Of a stretch of DNA of 64,000 bases, positions 9,205-55,254 are shown piece by piece. This DNA comes from Bradyrhizobiaceae bacterium Ga0074131 (GTDB lineage Bacteria > Pseudomonadota > Alphaproteobacteria > Rhizobiales > Xanthobacteraceae): positions 24,488 through 88,487 of the forward strand of contig LNEC01000018.1 in NCBI GenBank assembly GCA_001464035.1. Direction: 5' to 3'. The notes under the pieces were generated by a model that was given only the letters and a program-made list of their open reading frames with translations, did not search any database and had not been told where the DNA came from. The position numbers and the translations under genes are program-made. Position 1 is the first letter of the stretch. Every line of letters starts with the position of its first letter.

Positions 9205-9417
9205 GTGATTGCGAAAACCGCGCGAGGTGGGACTTAAAGGCGGGACCATTCCAAGTCAAGGTTGTTGCGAATCCCCCCGTCAGTCGGGCATTTTTGCGAT
9301 GCCGATGCAAATAATGGCTTGTTTGCAGGCAAAACAACGTAGTCAGTCCGCCCCCGAATCATTTAAGGCCTGCTACGTCTGGGTTTCCCCAGCCATCAAC
9401 AACGAGGAGGGCCGAAT

Positions 9418-9717
9418 ATGGCCAAGAAGGCAGCGACACCGACCACCGTCACGCTCAAGCATCTGGCGGCAGCGATCGCCGAAGACCAGGAATTGTCCAA
9501 GAAGCAGTCGGAAGCCATCTTGAATGATCTGGTCACCCGGATCACCAAGCACCTGAAGAAAGGCGAGCGCATCCGTATCGTCGGTCTCGGCATCCTGCAG
9601 GTGCGCAAGCGCGCCGCACGCATGGGCCGCAACCCGGCCACCGGCGAAGCGATCCAGATCAAGGCAAGCAAGAAGGTCGCCTTCCGCGCGGCCAAGGAAC
9701 TCAAGGAAGCCGTCTGA
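9418..9717 (+). CDS. HU family DNA-binding protein
   Basis: LSKKQSEAILNDLVTRITKHLKKGERIRIVGLGILQVRKRAARMGRNPATGEAIQIKASKKVAFRAAKELKEAV. Confidence 0.9.
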   Translation: MAKKAATPTTVTLKHLAAAIAEDQELSKKQSEAILNDLVTRITKHLKKGERIRIVGLGILQVRKRAARMGRNPATGEAIQIKASKKVAFRAAKELKEAV

Positions 9718-9742
9718 TCAGGCGCGTTTCAATTCTGGTTTG

Positions 9743-9780
9743 CGTCATTCCGGCACGGCCCGCGCGGCTCCGGAATGACG
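9743..9780. repeat. dispersed palindrome / possible terminator after HU gene
   Basis: Exact 11-bp arms CGTCATTCCGG ... CCGGAATGACG. Confidence 0.7.
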
Positions 9781-9817
9781 CTTCGCCCTTAATCTGGCCT
9801 TCGCGGCCGCCGCAGCG

Positions 9818-11080
9818 GTGTTGATCGTGGTTTCGCCCTTGGAGTTCACACACGCCGTGACCGAGCGCTTCCTGCGCTACGTGGCGATCGACACCCAGTC
9901 GGACCCTGCCTCCCCCACCTGGCCCTCGACCGAAAGACAGAAGGATTTGGGGCGCCTGTTGGCCAGCGAGTTGCAGGCGATGGGCCTGCGCGACGCCCAT
10001 CTCGACGAACACGGCTACGTCTACGCGACGATCCCGGCCAATACCGACAAGCAGGTCCCGGTGATCTGCTTCTGCTCGCATATGGACACGTCGCCGGATT
10101 GTACCGGCAGGGACGTCAAGCCGCAGATCGTCAGGAATTATCGCGGCGGCGACATCGTGCTGCCGGGCGACCCGACGCAGGTGATCCGTGCCGCTGACCA
10201 TCCCGCGCTGGGCGATCAGATCGGCAACGACATCATCACCACGGATGGCACCACCCTGCTTGGCGCCGACAACAAGGCCGGGCTTGCCGAAATCATGGAT
10301 GCCGCACATTTCCTGATCCGCAATCCGCAAGTAAGGCACGGCACCATCAAGATCCTGTTCACGCCCGACGAAGAGATCGGGCGCGGCGTCGACAAGGCCG
10401 ACCTGAAGAAACTCGGCGCCGATTTCGCCTACACGATGGACGGCGAAACCGCCGGGAATATCGAGGACGAGACCTTTTCCGCCGATGGCGCCACCATCAC
10501 CCTCGAAGGCGTCAGCACCCATCCCGGCTTCGCCAAAGGCAAGATGGAGCACGCGATCAAGATCGCGGCCGCGATCGTCGAGCGGCTGCCCAAAGATACC
10601 TGCTCGCCGGAAACCACCGAAGGCAGGCAAGGCTTCCTGCATCCGATCGGGATATCGGGAGCGCTGGAGAAAGCCACACTCGACCTGATCGTGCGCGACT
10701 TCACCGACGAGGGATTGAAAGAGAAGGAAGCTCTGCTGGAAAGCATCGTCCAGGACGTGATGAAGGACTATCCGCACTCGACGTATCGGCTGGAGATCAA
10801 GCCGCAGTACCGCAACATGAAGCAGGTGATCGATCGCCACCCCGAAATCATCGACAACGCGATGGAGGCGATCCGCCGCACTGGCCTCACCCCGCGGAAG
10901 ACTTCCATCCGCGGCGGCACCGACGGCTCACGGCTGTCGTTCATGGGGCTGCCCTGCCCCAACATCTTCGCCGGCGAGCACGCGTTTCATTCGCGGCTGG
11001 AATGGGTGAGCGTGCAGGACATGGAAAAGGCTGTTCAGACCATCGTGCATCTGGCGATGATTTTTGAGGAGCGGGCCTAG
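9818..11080 (+). CDS. pepT: peptidase T (tripeptide aminopeptidase, M20)
   Basis: FLRYVAIDTQSDP, CSHMDTSPD, TLLGADNKAGLAEIM, TPDEEIGRG, IRGGTDGSRLSFMGLPCPNIFAG; the true start may be slightly downstream. Confidence 0.93.
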   Translation: MLIVVSPLEFTHAVTERFLRYVAIDTQSDPASPTWPSTERQKDLGRLLASELQAMGLRDAHLDEHGYVYATIPANTDKQVPVICFCSHMDTSPDCTGRDVKPQIVRNYRGGDIVLPGDPTQVIRAADHPALGDQIGNDIITTDGTTLLGADNKAGLAEIMDAAHFLIRNPQVRHGTIKILFTPDEEIGRGVDKADLKKLGADFAYTMDGETAGNIEDETFSADGATITLEGVSTHPGFAKGKMEHAIKIAAAIVERLPKDTCSPETTEGRQGFLHPIGISGALEKATLDLIVRDFTDEGLKEKEALLESIVQDVMKDYPHSTYRLEIKPQYRNMKQVIDRHPEIIDNAMEAIRRTGLTPRKTSIRGGTDGSRLSFMGLPCPNIFAGEHAFHSRLEWVSVQDMEKAVQTIVHLAMIFEERA

Positions 11081-49679: not shown

Positions 49680-50088
49680 ATGTCTTTACCGCGAATCGGT
49701 TATGTACCTCATCCCTTGTGCGTCGCACCAACTTCCCATCAGACGTAACCGACTTGCAGCAAAGAGAGCTTGCTCAATGCTCTCCGAAAAAGACGAAGCG
49801 TGCATGGTTTTGCTTTCGCGTTTCTTTCGGCGAAATCGTTGAGCTGGCGCAGAAGCCGTCCGCTATCCAGTCCGGCAAAGCCTCGAACAAGCGGGATCGG
49901 CCGCCCCCGCACCCTGAGAAGATCATGAGACAGTCGGCTGAGATTAACGGCGCGGGTAGGCCGGCAAACCTCACCATCCGAGTGTGCCAGTTTTCGGGAG
50001 CTTCCGCGCTTTGCGCTCCCCCTTGATCCTCGAATGGTGGTCGCGAATGGAATGCCAAAATGTACGTACTGTAGTTTTCTGCCATGTC

Positions 50089-51537
50089 TCACACAGGTAT
50101 GAAACGCCCCAGCCCCCCGTTCGGCTCAACCGGTTGCCTCCGAAAATTATCCTGCAGTGCATCTATTGCCCTAACCGGCAAGTCCCGCCGATTTCGACCA
50201 AATTTCTGCGGCACAGCTTGGGCAGTCACGAAGGCTGACTTATAGCTGCGGCCGCCCACAAGGGGCGCGCCCGCCGCGAAGATGTGCTCGATCCGATGGC
50301 CTGGAGGATTCTCAAGCTTGCCGTAAATGGTCAAGCCCCTGAAGCGCTTGAGATAGCCACCCATCTGCCCGAATGGGTCGGCTGAAAATGTTCGCTCGAG
50401 GCTTTCCTCCATCATCTCCTGGATTTCCGCGCCGGTAAGTTCGACGGTCGAGATCGGCGGATTGGTAGGAATGATGTTCCAGAGATCGTTGATGGTAACC
50501 GGGCCGGGTGGGATCGGCGCACCATATCGCCAGCCATTCGAAAACGCGATATCAGTCCCGCCGGCGTACGCGACCGCCGCAAGGAGAAGATCGTCCATCG
50601 GCGCGGAAAGGATAGTGTCGCGGTGCAGTCCGATTGCTGTATTGCCGACGATCTCTGCCAGCATGGCGCGATGGGGCCTCATTACTTCGTCCACCAAGCG
50701 CTGCATCGCATCATCCGGTTGTATAGAATCTTCGATGGGGATGAGCTGATGCTGCGCATCGATGATCCTGTTGCCGGCAACCTTAAGGTCCAGGCGTCCA
50801 ATAAAGGACCCATGGCAACCGGACTGGATGATGAGCGTGTTTCCGATCCGGGCGGGGCGTTCGAGCCGATTGTGCGTGTGACCGCTGAGAAGGACGTCAA
50901 TGCCCTTGACCGAGGCAGCGAGTTTGACATCTTGAGGAAAGCCCAAATGCGATAACACGACAATCAGATTGACGCTCTCGCCCAGCTTTAGCCGATCGAT
51001 CTCTGCAGGCAGTTCATCTAGGCCCAAGGTGAAGCGGAGGCCCTCGCTGAAATGTGGCGGCATACTTTTATCAACGATCGTGGCTGCGATGCCTATCACG
51101 CCGACGCGCAGTCCGGCGCGCTCCAGGACCACGGATGCCGGAAAGGCTCGTTCGCCGGTCGCCTTGTCGTAACAGTTGATGGCAAGCATTGGATGGTCAA
51201 GTCGGTCGACCAATTTGCGGAAGTGCGCGGGACCCCAAGCAAACTCCCAATGTGCCGTCATAGCGTCGATTTTCAGCGCGTTGACGAGCGGGATCAAAGC
51301 TTCGCCGCGACTAATGACGGCGGCGTATGTCCCATGAAACGTATCGCCATTGTCGAGAACCAGGACACCGCCAGGATTTTCACGCCGCGCAGCATTTAGC
51401 AGCGATGCGATTCGCGCGAACCCTCCCAGAGTGGGATACGACGCGTTACTTCCGCACCAGACAAGCTCCGGATGGGGCTCCAAGTAGCCATGGGTATCGT
51501 TGGCCTGAATGACCGTCAGATTGCAGGTTTGTGTCAT
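50089..51537 (-). CDS. SoxB-like / 5'-nucleotidase-family metallophosphoesterase
   Basis: VIQANDTHGY, DNGDTFHG, MTAHWEFAWGP (SoxB-type HWEF), VVLSHLGF, LLSGHTHNRLERPARIGNTLIIQSG, NGWRYGAPIPPGPVT; no signal peptide. Confidence 0.82.
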   Translation of the reverse strand: MTQTCNLTVIQANDTHGYLEPHPELVWCGSNASYPTLGGFARIASLLNAARRENPGGVLVLDNGDTFHGTYAAVISRGEALIPLVNALKIDAMTAHWEFAWGPAHFRKLVDRLDHPMLAINCYDKATGERAFPASVVLERAGLRVGVIGIAATIVDKSMPPHFSEGLRFTLGLDELPAEIDRLKLGESVNLIVVLSHLGFPQDVKLAASVKGIDVLLSGHTHNRLERPARIGNTLIIQSGCHGSFIGRLDLKVAGNRIIDAQHQLIPIEDSIQPDDAMQRLVDEVMRPHRAMLAEIVGNTAIGLHRDTILSAPMDDLLLAAVAYAGGTDIAFSNGWRYGAPIPPGPVTINDLWNIIPTNPPISTVELTGAEIQEMMEESLERTFSADPFGQMGGYLKRFRGLTIYGKLENPPGHRIEHIFAAGAPLVGGRSYKSAFVTAQAVPQKFGRNRRDLPVRAIDALQDNFRRQPVEPNGGLGRFIPV

Positions 51538-51956
51538 TTGACCCGGCTACGCTGGCGGAGCTTGCCTGTCCCAATGTCTGCAATTACTTCCTGCAGGGCA
51601 GAGCGGACGCTTGCGGCAATTTCGGCGAGCTTGGGGTTCTCGATTGCTTGCATGGATGCTACCGGATCCACCGCTGAAATTTCAGTACAACCCGAATCAC
51701 GCTCTTGCAGGACGACATTGCAAGGAAGCATGGTGCCGATTTTATCCTCAGCCTGGAGCGCCTGGTACGCCATTTTTGGGTTGCAAGCGCCTAGGATACG
51801 GTAAGGATGAAAGTCCACATCCAGCTTCTTCTTTAGTGTTTGCTGCACATCAATCTCGGTGAGCACACCAAAACCATGTTCCTTCAAGGCTTCGGTAGTC
51901 ACAGAAACGGCGGCTTCCATCGGCAAATCGACGGTCTTAGAAAAATGGTAGCTCAT
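51534..51956 (-). CDS. DUF302 family protein
   Basis: ALKEHGFGVLTEIDVQQTLKKKLDVDFHPYRILGACNPKMAYQALQAEDKIGTMLPCNVVLQE. Confidence 0.9.
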   Translation of the reverse strand: MSYHFSKTVDLPMEAAVSVTTEALKEHGFGVLTEIDVQQTLKKKLDVDFHPYRILGACNPKMAYQALQAEDKIGTMLPCNVVLQERDSGCTEISAVDPVASMQAIENPKLAEIAASVRSALQEVIADIGTGKLRQRSRVK

Positions 51957-52143
51957 GAGCGTTTCTCCAAGGCGCGATAGAATATGCGGGCTAGCTTTAG
52001 TGTTAACGCCATTCGACAGCTATGGTTCACTGACATCGCGAACATCGCGAATGGCTCGGGTCGAACGAAAGCACGCCGCCCCAGCCGCGGTCTAGTCGGC
52101 GGCAGCACACGGCCGTCGTGATGACTTCAGCCGCTACTGAGAG

Positions 52144-52632
52144 CTATTTCCTAGCTCGCCTTCGGACGATTCTTAGCACTCCTTTAGTGGGTTCGATGGT
52201 TAAGGCTAACGCCCGGTCGATTGCAACCGCACCCGATCCGTTAAAGACGAAATGAATCAACGCGCCAAGGATAGCTATATTCTTGAACAACGGCCCGGCG
52301 TGGCCCGGAGCCACGTGCATTGTAATCGTAATCGGCACGAGCGTGACGAAGAGTACAACAGATGACAGCTGAGTCAAAAATCCCGCGGCAAGCGCGAGGC
52401 CCGCCGGAACGAAAATGGCGCCGGAAACCCAGAGCAAAACAGATGGATTGCCGATCATGTTGATCGCATTTGCCCACGGCGATTCGGCTATCCGCTCAAG
52501 CATCTGACGATGCTCCACGAAATGTCCAAGCCCGCCAATGACGAAAATGAGGCTGAGGCTAACGCGAAAAATAGGATCCGAGAAACGGCCGTTTCTTTTC
52601 AGGAACCGCTGCAATGGCGCAATCAGTGTCAC
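52144..52632 (-). CDS. DoxX family membrane protein
   Basis: FRVSLSLIFVIGGLGHFVEHRQML...ISGAIFVPAGLALAAGFLTQL-type TM layout. Confidence 0.85.
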   Translation of the reverse strand: MTLIAPLQRFLKRNGRFSDPIFRVSLSLIFVIGGLGHFVEHRQMLERIAESPWANAINMIGNPSVLLWVSGAIFVPAGLALAAGFLTQLSSVVLFVTLVPITITMHVAPGHAGPLFKNIAILGALIHFVFNGSGAVAIDRALALTIEPTKGVLRIVRRRARK

Positions 52633-52684
52633 TCTTCAATCCTTGAAATGAATGGGCCGAGCGAAGGCCGGCTAACGCTCTCGT

Positions 52685-52804
52685 TTATCGACCAGAGGAC
52701 AGGTACTTGGCGAGCGCCGCACCTGCCAACACCAGCACCACGATGATGACTATCCATGTGAGGCCCATGCCAAACATCATTCCTCCGCCTGTACCGTCCA
52801 TCAT
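52685..52804 (-). CDS. 39-aa single-TM peptide, Gly/Met-rich N-terminus (not in ORF track)
   Basis: MMDGTGGGMMFGMGLTWIVIIVVLVLAGAALAKYLSSGR*; located between rhodanese-like and DoxX genes, same strand. Confidence 0.7.
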   Translation of the reverse strand: MMDGTGGGMMFGMGLTWIVIIVVLVLAGAALAKYLSSGR

Positions 52805-52839
52805 TGTCTTGGGTCCTTCTGTTCGATTGCGCTAGTACG

Positions 52840-53100
52840 TCACGATCCGACCCACGCCGCGCTTTCGGTTTCGCCGCCCCCCTTTTGCGTCGCGGGAAAG
52901 CCGCCGGCTACATGCGAGACGTTGGCGATACCAATGCTCTTGAACGTCTTTGTAGCCAGCGCTGACCGGTTGCCGGAAGCACAATAGAGCACCCGCCGCT
53001 TGCCGCTGCTCAACGGCTTGACATGGGTTGGGCTGTTCGAAAGCTTCTCGACCTCCGCTGTAGCCGCGGCGACGAGTTCTTTTGCGCTCTTAATGTTCAT
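52840..53100 (-). CDS. short rhodanese-like protein
   Basis: RRVLYCASGNRSALATKTFKSIGIANVSHVAGGF (CxxGxR active loop); ATGA overlap with upstream MBL gene. Confidence 0.8.
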   Translation of the reverse strand: MNIKSAKELVAAATAEVEKLSNSPTHVKPLSSGKRRVLYCASGNRSALATKTFKSIGIANVSHVAGGFPATQKGGGETESAAWVGS

Positions 53101-54008
53101 GGTGGTACTCCTTCATTCCAAGGCACGCCTTCGAGCGCTCCAAGGGGGATTTTGAGATAGCGCTGGCCGTTCGACTCCGGATCGGGCAGCCTGCCGCCTC
53201 GAATGTTCACTTGCAGCGATTGCAATATCAGTTTCGGCATAGGCAGTTTTCGGTCACGAGCCTGCCGAAGCGCCACGAACTCAGCTTCGGTCTTCGCCTC
53301 TTTGAGGTGAATGTTTTCAGATTTCTGCTGTCCCACCGTACTTTCCCAGGCGGGTTCGCGCCCGCCCGGTAGGTAGTCGTGTCCGGTGAAGACCCTGGTG
53401 TCATCTGGCAACGCAAGAATTCTCTGGATACTTCTCCAAAGTGCGTGCGCATCCCCGCCCGGAAAATCGGCGCGTGCCGTTCCGAAGTCTGGTTGGAACA
53501 GGGTATCATGAACGAAGATTGCATCTCCGACACCGTAGGCGATCGAGGCAAGCGTATGCCCCGGCGTAAACATCACCTCGACATCACAACTGCCGATCTT
53601 GAACCGCTCGCCGTCGACGAACAGCTTGTCCCATTGCGAGCCGTCGGTCGGGAAAGTGTCGGGGTAATTGTAGATTTCTTTCCAGAGCTTCTGCACTTCG
53701 ACGACCTTTTCGCCGATCGCAGTCGGGACGCCCGTTTTGCCCTTGAGATAGGCCGCTGCCGAGAAATGGTCGGCGTGCGGATGTGTGTCGAGAATCCATT
53801 TGAGCCTGTAGCCCTCCTTCCGCACATGATCGAGTAGCTCATCGGCCGACCACGTGGCTGTTGAGCCGGACTTTTCATCAAAATCGAGAACGGGGTCGAT
53901 GATAGCGCAGTGCCGCGTCTCGGGATCCGCGACAACGTACTGCACGCTGAAGGTGCGTTTGTCGAAGAACCCCTGGACAATTGGAAACCCCTGCAACTCA
54001 GACTTCAT
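53097..54008 (-). CDS. Blh-type MBL-fold hydrolase (persulfide dioxygenase-like)
   Basis: WILDTHPHADHFSAAAYLKGKTG, FTPGHTLASIAYGVGDAIFVHDTLF, VFTGHDY. Confidence 0.92.
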   Translation of the reverse strand: MKSELQGFPIVQGFFDKRTFSVQYVVADPETRHCAIIDPVLDFDEKSGSTATWSADELLDHVRKEGYRLKWILDTHPHADHFSAAAYLKGKTGVPTAIGEKVVEVQKLWKEIYNYPDTFPTDGSQWDKLFVDGERFKIGSCDVEVMFTPGHTLASIAYGVGDAIFVHDTLFQPDFGTARADFPGGDAHALWRSIQRILALPDDTRVFTGHDYLPGGREPAWESTVGQQKSENIHLKEAKTEAEFVALRQARDRKLPMPKLILQSLQVNIRGGRLPDPESNGQRYLKIPLGALEGVPWNEGVPP

Positions 54009-54042
54009 TATGCAACCGTCCTTCCCGAGTTAGGGGATTTTT

Positions 54043-54843
54043 TCAAGCCGCGACCAGCGTCGCCGTTCCGCGCACGACGACGTAGAGGCCGACCAGAATG
54101 ACCAGGCCAGCGAACGTCAGATTGAGTGCCTGCTTCCTTGCTGCGAGCGCTTTTCCGAACGCGACGCCGGCTATGCCGCCAACCAGGCCGCCGAGAACGA
54201 ACAGGCTGGCAATCGGCCAGTCGATCATCCCGGAGACGGCATAGCTCGCTGCAGTTGCCGCCCCGAACGCCGCGACGGCAACGAGGGACGTGCCAATCGC
54301 CATCGTCAGGGGCATCCCGGTCGCAAGCATGAGGCCCGGCACGATCAGGAAGCCGCCTCCAATTCCGAAGAAACCCGACAAAAGTCCGACCGCAAAACCG
54401 ATGCTCAGCAGCAACGGCAAAAGCCCGCGCGCTGTCGTCATCGACAATCGCACCTCCGGATTCCCCGCCGTACTCCGTTTGCGCAGCATGGTAATGCCCA
54501 CCAGGATCATCAGCGCGCCGAACAGGACCAAGAGTTTCTGCCCATCGAGCGCTTTGGCCACAGTGGAGCCCCCAACCGCCCCGAACACGCCGGCTGATGC
54601 AAAGACGGCCGCACAGCGCCATTTCACATTTCCGGCGCGGGCATGGCTCACCACGTTGCCGAGTGCGCTCAGGGAGACCGCAACGGCACTTGTGCCGATT
54701 GCCACATGTGGCGAGGTTACCCCGACAGCGTAAACCAGAAGAGGAACTGCGAGAATAGAACCGCCGCCCCCGACAAGCCCTAGCACCAGGCCAACAACTC
54801 CGCCCGAGACCGTTGTCGAGATGCCGACGGGAAGTTCCATCAT
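54043..54843 (-). CDS. TauE/SafE (TSUP) family permease
   Basis: GLVLGLVGGGGSILAVPLLVYAVGV, GFFGIGGGFLIVPGLMLATGM. Confidence 0.93.
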   Translation of the reverse strand: MMELPVGISTTVSGGVVGLVLGLVGGGGSILAVPLLVYAVGVTSPHVAIGTSAVAVSLSALGNVVSHARAGNVKWRCAAVFASAGVFGAVGGSTVAKALDGQKLLVLFGALMILVGITMLRKRSTAGNPEVRLSMTTARGLLPLLLSIGFAVGLLSGFFGIGGGFLIVPGLMLATGMPLTMAIGTSLVAVAAFGAATAASYAVSGMIDWPIASLFVLGGLVGGIAGVAFGKALAARKQALNLTFAGLVILVGLYVVVRGTATLVAA

Positions 54844-54870
54844 GGGCCAGCGACGCTCATTCGATCAATA

Positions 54871-54886
54871 ATTAGCACTTACTAAT
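54871..54886. promoter_or_regulatory. AT-rich operator palindrome upstream of the sulfur operon
   Basis: ATTAG-CACTTA-CTAAT, exact 5-bp arms in AT-rich block just upstream of TauE gene. Confidence 0.5.
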
Positions 54887-55254
54887 TTAGTATGTCCTGA
54901 TATTGATTCAAGTGCCCTCGCTAGGGTGAATCTGGTGGCCGGACCGTAAGCCAGGTTCCCCGGGACCGTAAAATCACGGATGCGCCGCGATGCCACCGAC
55001 ACAGCTACGGGTCGAGGTGCGCCTCCCGCCTTCAGCGCCATATCGCTCAGTCGCCGTCTTATCGCTCAGGTACCAACCGTGAGCTGCTGCTCAAGGGTAC
55101 CTTTTCTTAACCATTCCTTACCGGCGCTAACCGTTTCTTCCGATTTGTCCTTTATTCCAAGGCTGGGGAATTCCGCCACGGCGCGCGCATGCCTAGATGC
55201 CTGTGCAACAACGGGCTTGAACTAGCGGACTTTAATTAGCGGACCTGGACTAAA

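Follow-up and report, generated by a model that had tools for sequence, protein, structure and literature searches.

In Xylella and Agrobacterium, the bigR operon with its Blh protein brings together a repressor, a sulfurtransferase, an ETHE1-like dioxygenase, and a TauE exporter for sulfide oxidation (PMC5823870). The sulfurtransferase (DUF442 or rhodanese) is intact and fused to the dioxygenase in bigR/Blh and in MBL-rhodanese fusions (PDB 5VE3), and two conserved structural motifs mark the rhodanese fold, the active-site loop and, where the first strand ends, a DxR motif (review, PMC10135228). The cluster in the window (the whole 64,000-nucleotide stretch of DNA that we analyzed) is unlike these systems in that its rhodanese is unfused as well as broken and no repressor is left. 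Where a bigR-type operon holds repressor, sulfurtransferase, dioxygenase, and TauE together, we found the dioxygenase and TauE present, the sulfurtransferase broken, and arsR missing. The broken gene is a rhodanese remnant open reading frame (ORF) of 86 aa (52840..53100, minus strand; full-length orthologs, 129 aa), which we consider, with a probability of roughly 0.85, to be an in-frame-deleted, decaying rhodanese gene whose product is predicted to be a non-functional remnant.

The ORF, its sequence and strand, and its ATGA overlap with the adjacent MBL gene (53097-54008) were all as described in the initial annotation. The 86-aa protein matched Pfam Rhodanese (PF00581) with 31.1 bits against a cut-off of 22.2, and the best stretch, residues 5-70, corresponded to profile positions 32-98 of 102. 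Sequence and aligned columns place the retained active-site loop CASGNRS at residues 40-46 (52963..52983, minus strand), with residue 40 as the catalytic Cys. The overlapping gene encodes a 303-aa MBL-fold persulfide-dioxygenase-like protein of the Blh/ETHE1 type with an altered 3' end (53097..54008, minus strand; Pfam Lactamase_B), which scored 535.9 bits against NCBIfam Blh over the dioxygenase part, under the cut-off of 625. Also on the minus strand are genes for a TauE/SafE sulfite exporter (54043..54843), a DoxX-family protein (52144..52632), a DUF302 protein (51534..51956), and a 5'-nucleotidase or SoxB-like metallophosphoesterase (50089..51537; scoring 327 bits against a SoxB cut-off of 550). 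In these clusters, the SoxB-like 5'-nucleotidase is a recurrent neighbor of persulfide dioxygenase, DoxX, and DUF302. The 86-aa gene is a single-domain rhodanese gene belonging to a horizontally acquired sulfide/persulfide-oxidation cluster.

The nearest relatives found were the Bradyrhizobium plasmids NZ_CP025114 and NZ_CP044544 and a pair of Bradyrhizobiaceae MAG contigs; all four have the gene order seen in the window, with a 129-aa rhodanese. The plasmid of Bradyrhizobium sp. SK17 (NZ_CP025114, CWS35_RS37885) carries a single-domain rhodanese beside an MBL persulfide dioxygenase in an equivalent gene order and place, as do B. betae pBbPL7HG1 and the PARB1 and DeMMO1_5 MAGs. The rhodaneses of all four differ from that of the window in having 129 aa, an ordinary stop, and a retained DxR motif, and at the plasmid loci an ArsR gene and a membrane-type rhodanese gene stand upstream. 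The B. betae plasmid carries the cluster a second time; the rhodanese gene of that copy (L071, 1317-1682) is not shortened, yet it is interrupted by stops and frame shifts, reflecting either decay or sequencing error.

In the window, the cluster lies in a low-GC inserted island (49695..55106, no strand assigned) with a GC content of 0.54-0.61, compared to ~0.64-0.68 outside. The flanks at ~49694 and ~55107 adjoin in two relatives without the island (empty sites in L081 and L083), indicating that ~5.4 kb was inserted here. No exact target-site duplication (exact repeat of at least 10 nt) was found around the island. Its ends show an imperfect ~25-nt resemblance, which may be a degraded target duplication. 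Relative to the plasmids, arsR and the first, membrane-type rhodanese gene upstream of tauE are missing, with homology ending 15 nt upstream of tauE (position 54858). At the other end, only the start of a c-type cytochrome gene survives, a 5' remnant at 49800..49926 (minus strand, end approximate) that aligns to 9321-9544 of L064 within a coding sequence at 9314-9964; the plasmid relatives have the whole gene. The cluster is thus an acquired, low-GC, eroded island, with erosion at both ends. A search of the window's genome for a close copy of the lost membrane rhodanese elsewhere found none, the best match having 44% identity. The genome does contain other rhodanese-domain genes, including a 359-aa open frame matching both MBL and rhodanese, and this redundancy together with the lost regulator fits decay of the rhodanese gene studied here.

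DNA alignment with the nearest orthologs (L036, L037, L064, and L065) revealed a single clean gap of 141 nt in the window gene, equal to 47 codons and in frame, with the junction between codons 21 and 22 (53037..53038, minus strand). Because DNA identity outside the gap is ~92% and the Pfam match exceeds its cut-off, the gap far exceeds chance. The residues lost from the 86-aa protein, as found in the nearest orthologs, are ADAAVKLMDDPNVVFVDVRETNERRKTGVLKGSVHASRGFLEFHADP, and the initial annotation had come close in estimating the missing segment at ~45 residues. It had also taken the start of the protein as family-like, passing after ~15 residues to the next segment; on this detail our alignment differs, as family sequence restarts directly past residue 21, and NSPTHVKPLSSGKRR belongs to the family as well. 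Judging by the alignment, both flanks of the gap are ordinary ortholog sequence. An in-frame internal deletion, one of two options offered at the outset, was therefore demonstrated directly by alignment with near-identical orthologs. No direct repeat in the ortholog spans the deletion endpoints, and we rejected slippage between direct repeats as its origin.

The same DNA alignments revealed two further changes in the gene pair. The old stop TGA has become TGG (52852..52854, minus strand), extending the ORF by four codons (WVGS) up to a TGA at 52840-52842, and a 1-nt insertion near the 3' end of the MBL gene shortens the terminus of the MBL protein. In the full-length orthologs the rhodanese and MBL genes overlap by 11 nt, compared to 4 nt (ATGA) in the window, and the ATGA overlap is a by-product of the 1-nt insertion. 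Translational coupling had been read as a sign of function, a reading that lost its basis: the overlap was inherited from the full-length gene and so does not mark a specialized rhodanese-MBL pair.

Substitutions in the remnant, polarized with a more distant ortholog, were consistent with a loss of constraint. On the window branch we counted six nonsynonymous and two synonymous changes in the remnant, a neutral proportion, compared to 7:16 in TauE and 14:11 in MBL; the difference was nominally significant against TauE (Fisher p 0.043) and not significant against MBL (p 0.43). Five of the seven replacements relative to the ortholog (T19K, L83R, A97T, L100F, and A121G) fall at columns where full-length homologs show conservation of 90% or more, whereas at most 1 of 22 replacements did so between two full-length orthologs (p ~0.001), an enrichment that is weak when set against column composition alone (p 0.11). 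The Leu-to-Arg replacement lies in the strand running into the active-site Cys. Together, these counts suggest relaxed constraint on the remnant, as far as eight branch substitutions can indicate. Pairwise dN/dS values of 0.11-0.35 for the rest of the cluster imply that the other genes look constrained across the whole divergence, and the remnant's value of 0.235, being an average over the two branches, is little guide to the period after the deletion.

These separate changes also bear on the proposal that the organism carries a full-length gene and that an assembly or consensus error dropped 141 nt. The assembly is a draft of 23 contigs with 93.65% completeness, which would allow for such an error, but the endpoints lack a direct repeat that would collapse, and stop loss, an MBL indel, and conserved-site replacements would have to be explained as further changes in one gene pair, making this proposal improbable.

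The deletion removes one of the two motifs of the rhodanese fold, as the window protein retains the active-site loop and has lost DxR. On the full-length model, the deleted stretch comprises helices 22-26, 42-48, and 59-66 and strand 34-38. Structure prediction of the 86-aa protein alone, a check proposed in the initial annotation, returned no confident fold: AlphaFold2 gave a pLDDT of 53 and a pTM of 0.32 for the remnant, compared to 93 and 0.87 for the full-length ortholog with near-identical alignments, a comparison that could underrate the shortened protein if its fold needs a partner. Foldseek found no match for the remnant model in the PDB at E <= 0.001, whereas the full-length ortholog model matched 2HHG, RPA3614 of Rhodopseudomonas palustris, as the nearest solved structure (E 5.7e-14, TM 0.89). 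RPA3614 has the whole rhodanese fold, and the window protein aligns over the C-terminal part alone (residues 26-80). The complete alpha/beta rhodanese fold was thus predicted for the full-length control, with its PDB matches, and not for the 86-aa protein.

We found the short form in one genome. A search of 399 family genomes for the junction, tolerating two mismatches at most, recovered it in the genome of the window itself and in none of the other 398. DxR, absent from the window protein, was kept in all 50 of the other distinct intact homologs collected, and none of the remaining family matches bridged the junction. From these observations, the short form is, on present data, a single-lineage event. 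Widespread homologs of the same length, which the initial annotation had named as grounds for refuting its reading, did not turn up, and a same-length family was not recovered by a family-wide protein search, a genome-contig scan, a plasmid tblastn, or the junction pattern. One candidate second short form (L059), listed with 95 codons in the first match list, proved to have a full-length ORF.

The other option raised at the outset was a functional mini-rhodanese, in which the Cys loop and surrounding strands would serve as a small sulfur carrier docking on the coupled MBL persulfide dioxygenase, which would complete the fold by contributing the lost half. There are known enzymes in which MBL and rhodanese are fused (PDB 5VE3 and 3TP9), and the intact CASGNRS loop, the open frame, and the 4-nt overlap with the MBL gene would suit such a carrier. 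This option fared poorly against the loss of DxR (kept in every intact homolog), one central strand, several helices, and the stop, the lack of a confident predicted fold, the replacement of conserved sites, among them one that puts Arg into the strand running up to the active Cys, and the lack of a second genome with the short form; we regard it as quite improbable. A working half-rhodanese in the narrower sense would be a sulfur carrier of 86 aa, its Cys loop intact and its DxR half absent, that folds only against the co-translated MBL persulfide dioxygenase; it is very improbable, and apart from that intact loop and the open frame nothing favors it. By title and abstract, we found no relevant literature on truncated rhodaneses beside persulfide dioxygenases. 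It is scarcely credible that the remnant persists purely as a translated spacer holding ribosomes on the message or tuning downstream translation, with the protein irrelevant: the frame is still open and overlaps the MBL gene, and a conserved 39-aa ORF begins 35 nt downstream, but with ~8 substitutions on the branch a stop would in any case be unlikely to arise, and an open frame would thus need no selection.

Our results support a decaying rhodanese gene, probably a case of ordinary gene decay rather than a new miniature enzyme, despite the open frame, a deletion that is a multiple of three, and an intact catalytic Cys loop. A 141-nt in-frame deletion has probably broken the rhodanese of an acquired sulfide/persulfide-oxidation cluster, accompanied by stop loss and by loss of DxR with its strand and several helices, in an operon stripped of its regulator, first rhodanese, and most of the cytochrome gene. 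Since its start overlaps the MBL gene, the 86-aa product is presumably translated, but it would fail to fold into an active sulfurtransferase; from the loss of fold and motif, we infer that the deletion and stop loss are disabling. If the intact MBL enzyme still oxidizes persulfide, it would draw on persulfide from other sources or from the genome's other rhodaneses. The locus is a clean case of an in-frame deletion leaving an open, annotatable ORF with a family match above cut-off, one that automatic annotation would label a rhodanese. It serves mainly as a caution: after alignment with orthologs, the open frame, domain match, and ATGA overlap turned out not to imply a short enzyme that works.

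The 39-aa ORF downstream of the remnant, a conserved small membrane-type ORF (52685..52804, minus strand; MMDGTGGGMMFGMGLTWIVIIVVLVLAGAALAKYLSSGR), is absent from the gene tables of both plasmid records, and the MBL gene of the first cluster copy on the B. betae plasmid is likewise unannotated. The 39-aa ORF shows 97% identity to its counterparts in the plasmid and PARB1 relatives and is recognizable in Hephaestia (L039), and its dN of 0.012 compared to a dS of 0.107 suggests that it encodes a real small membrane protein.
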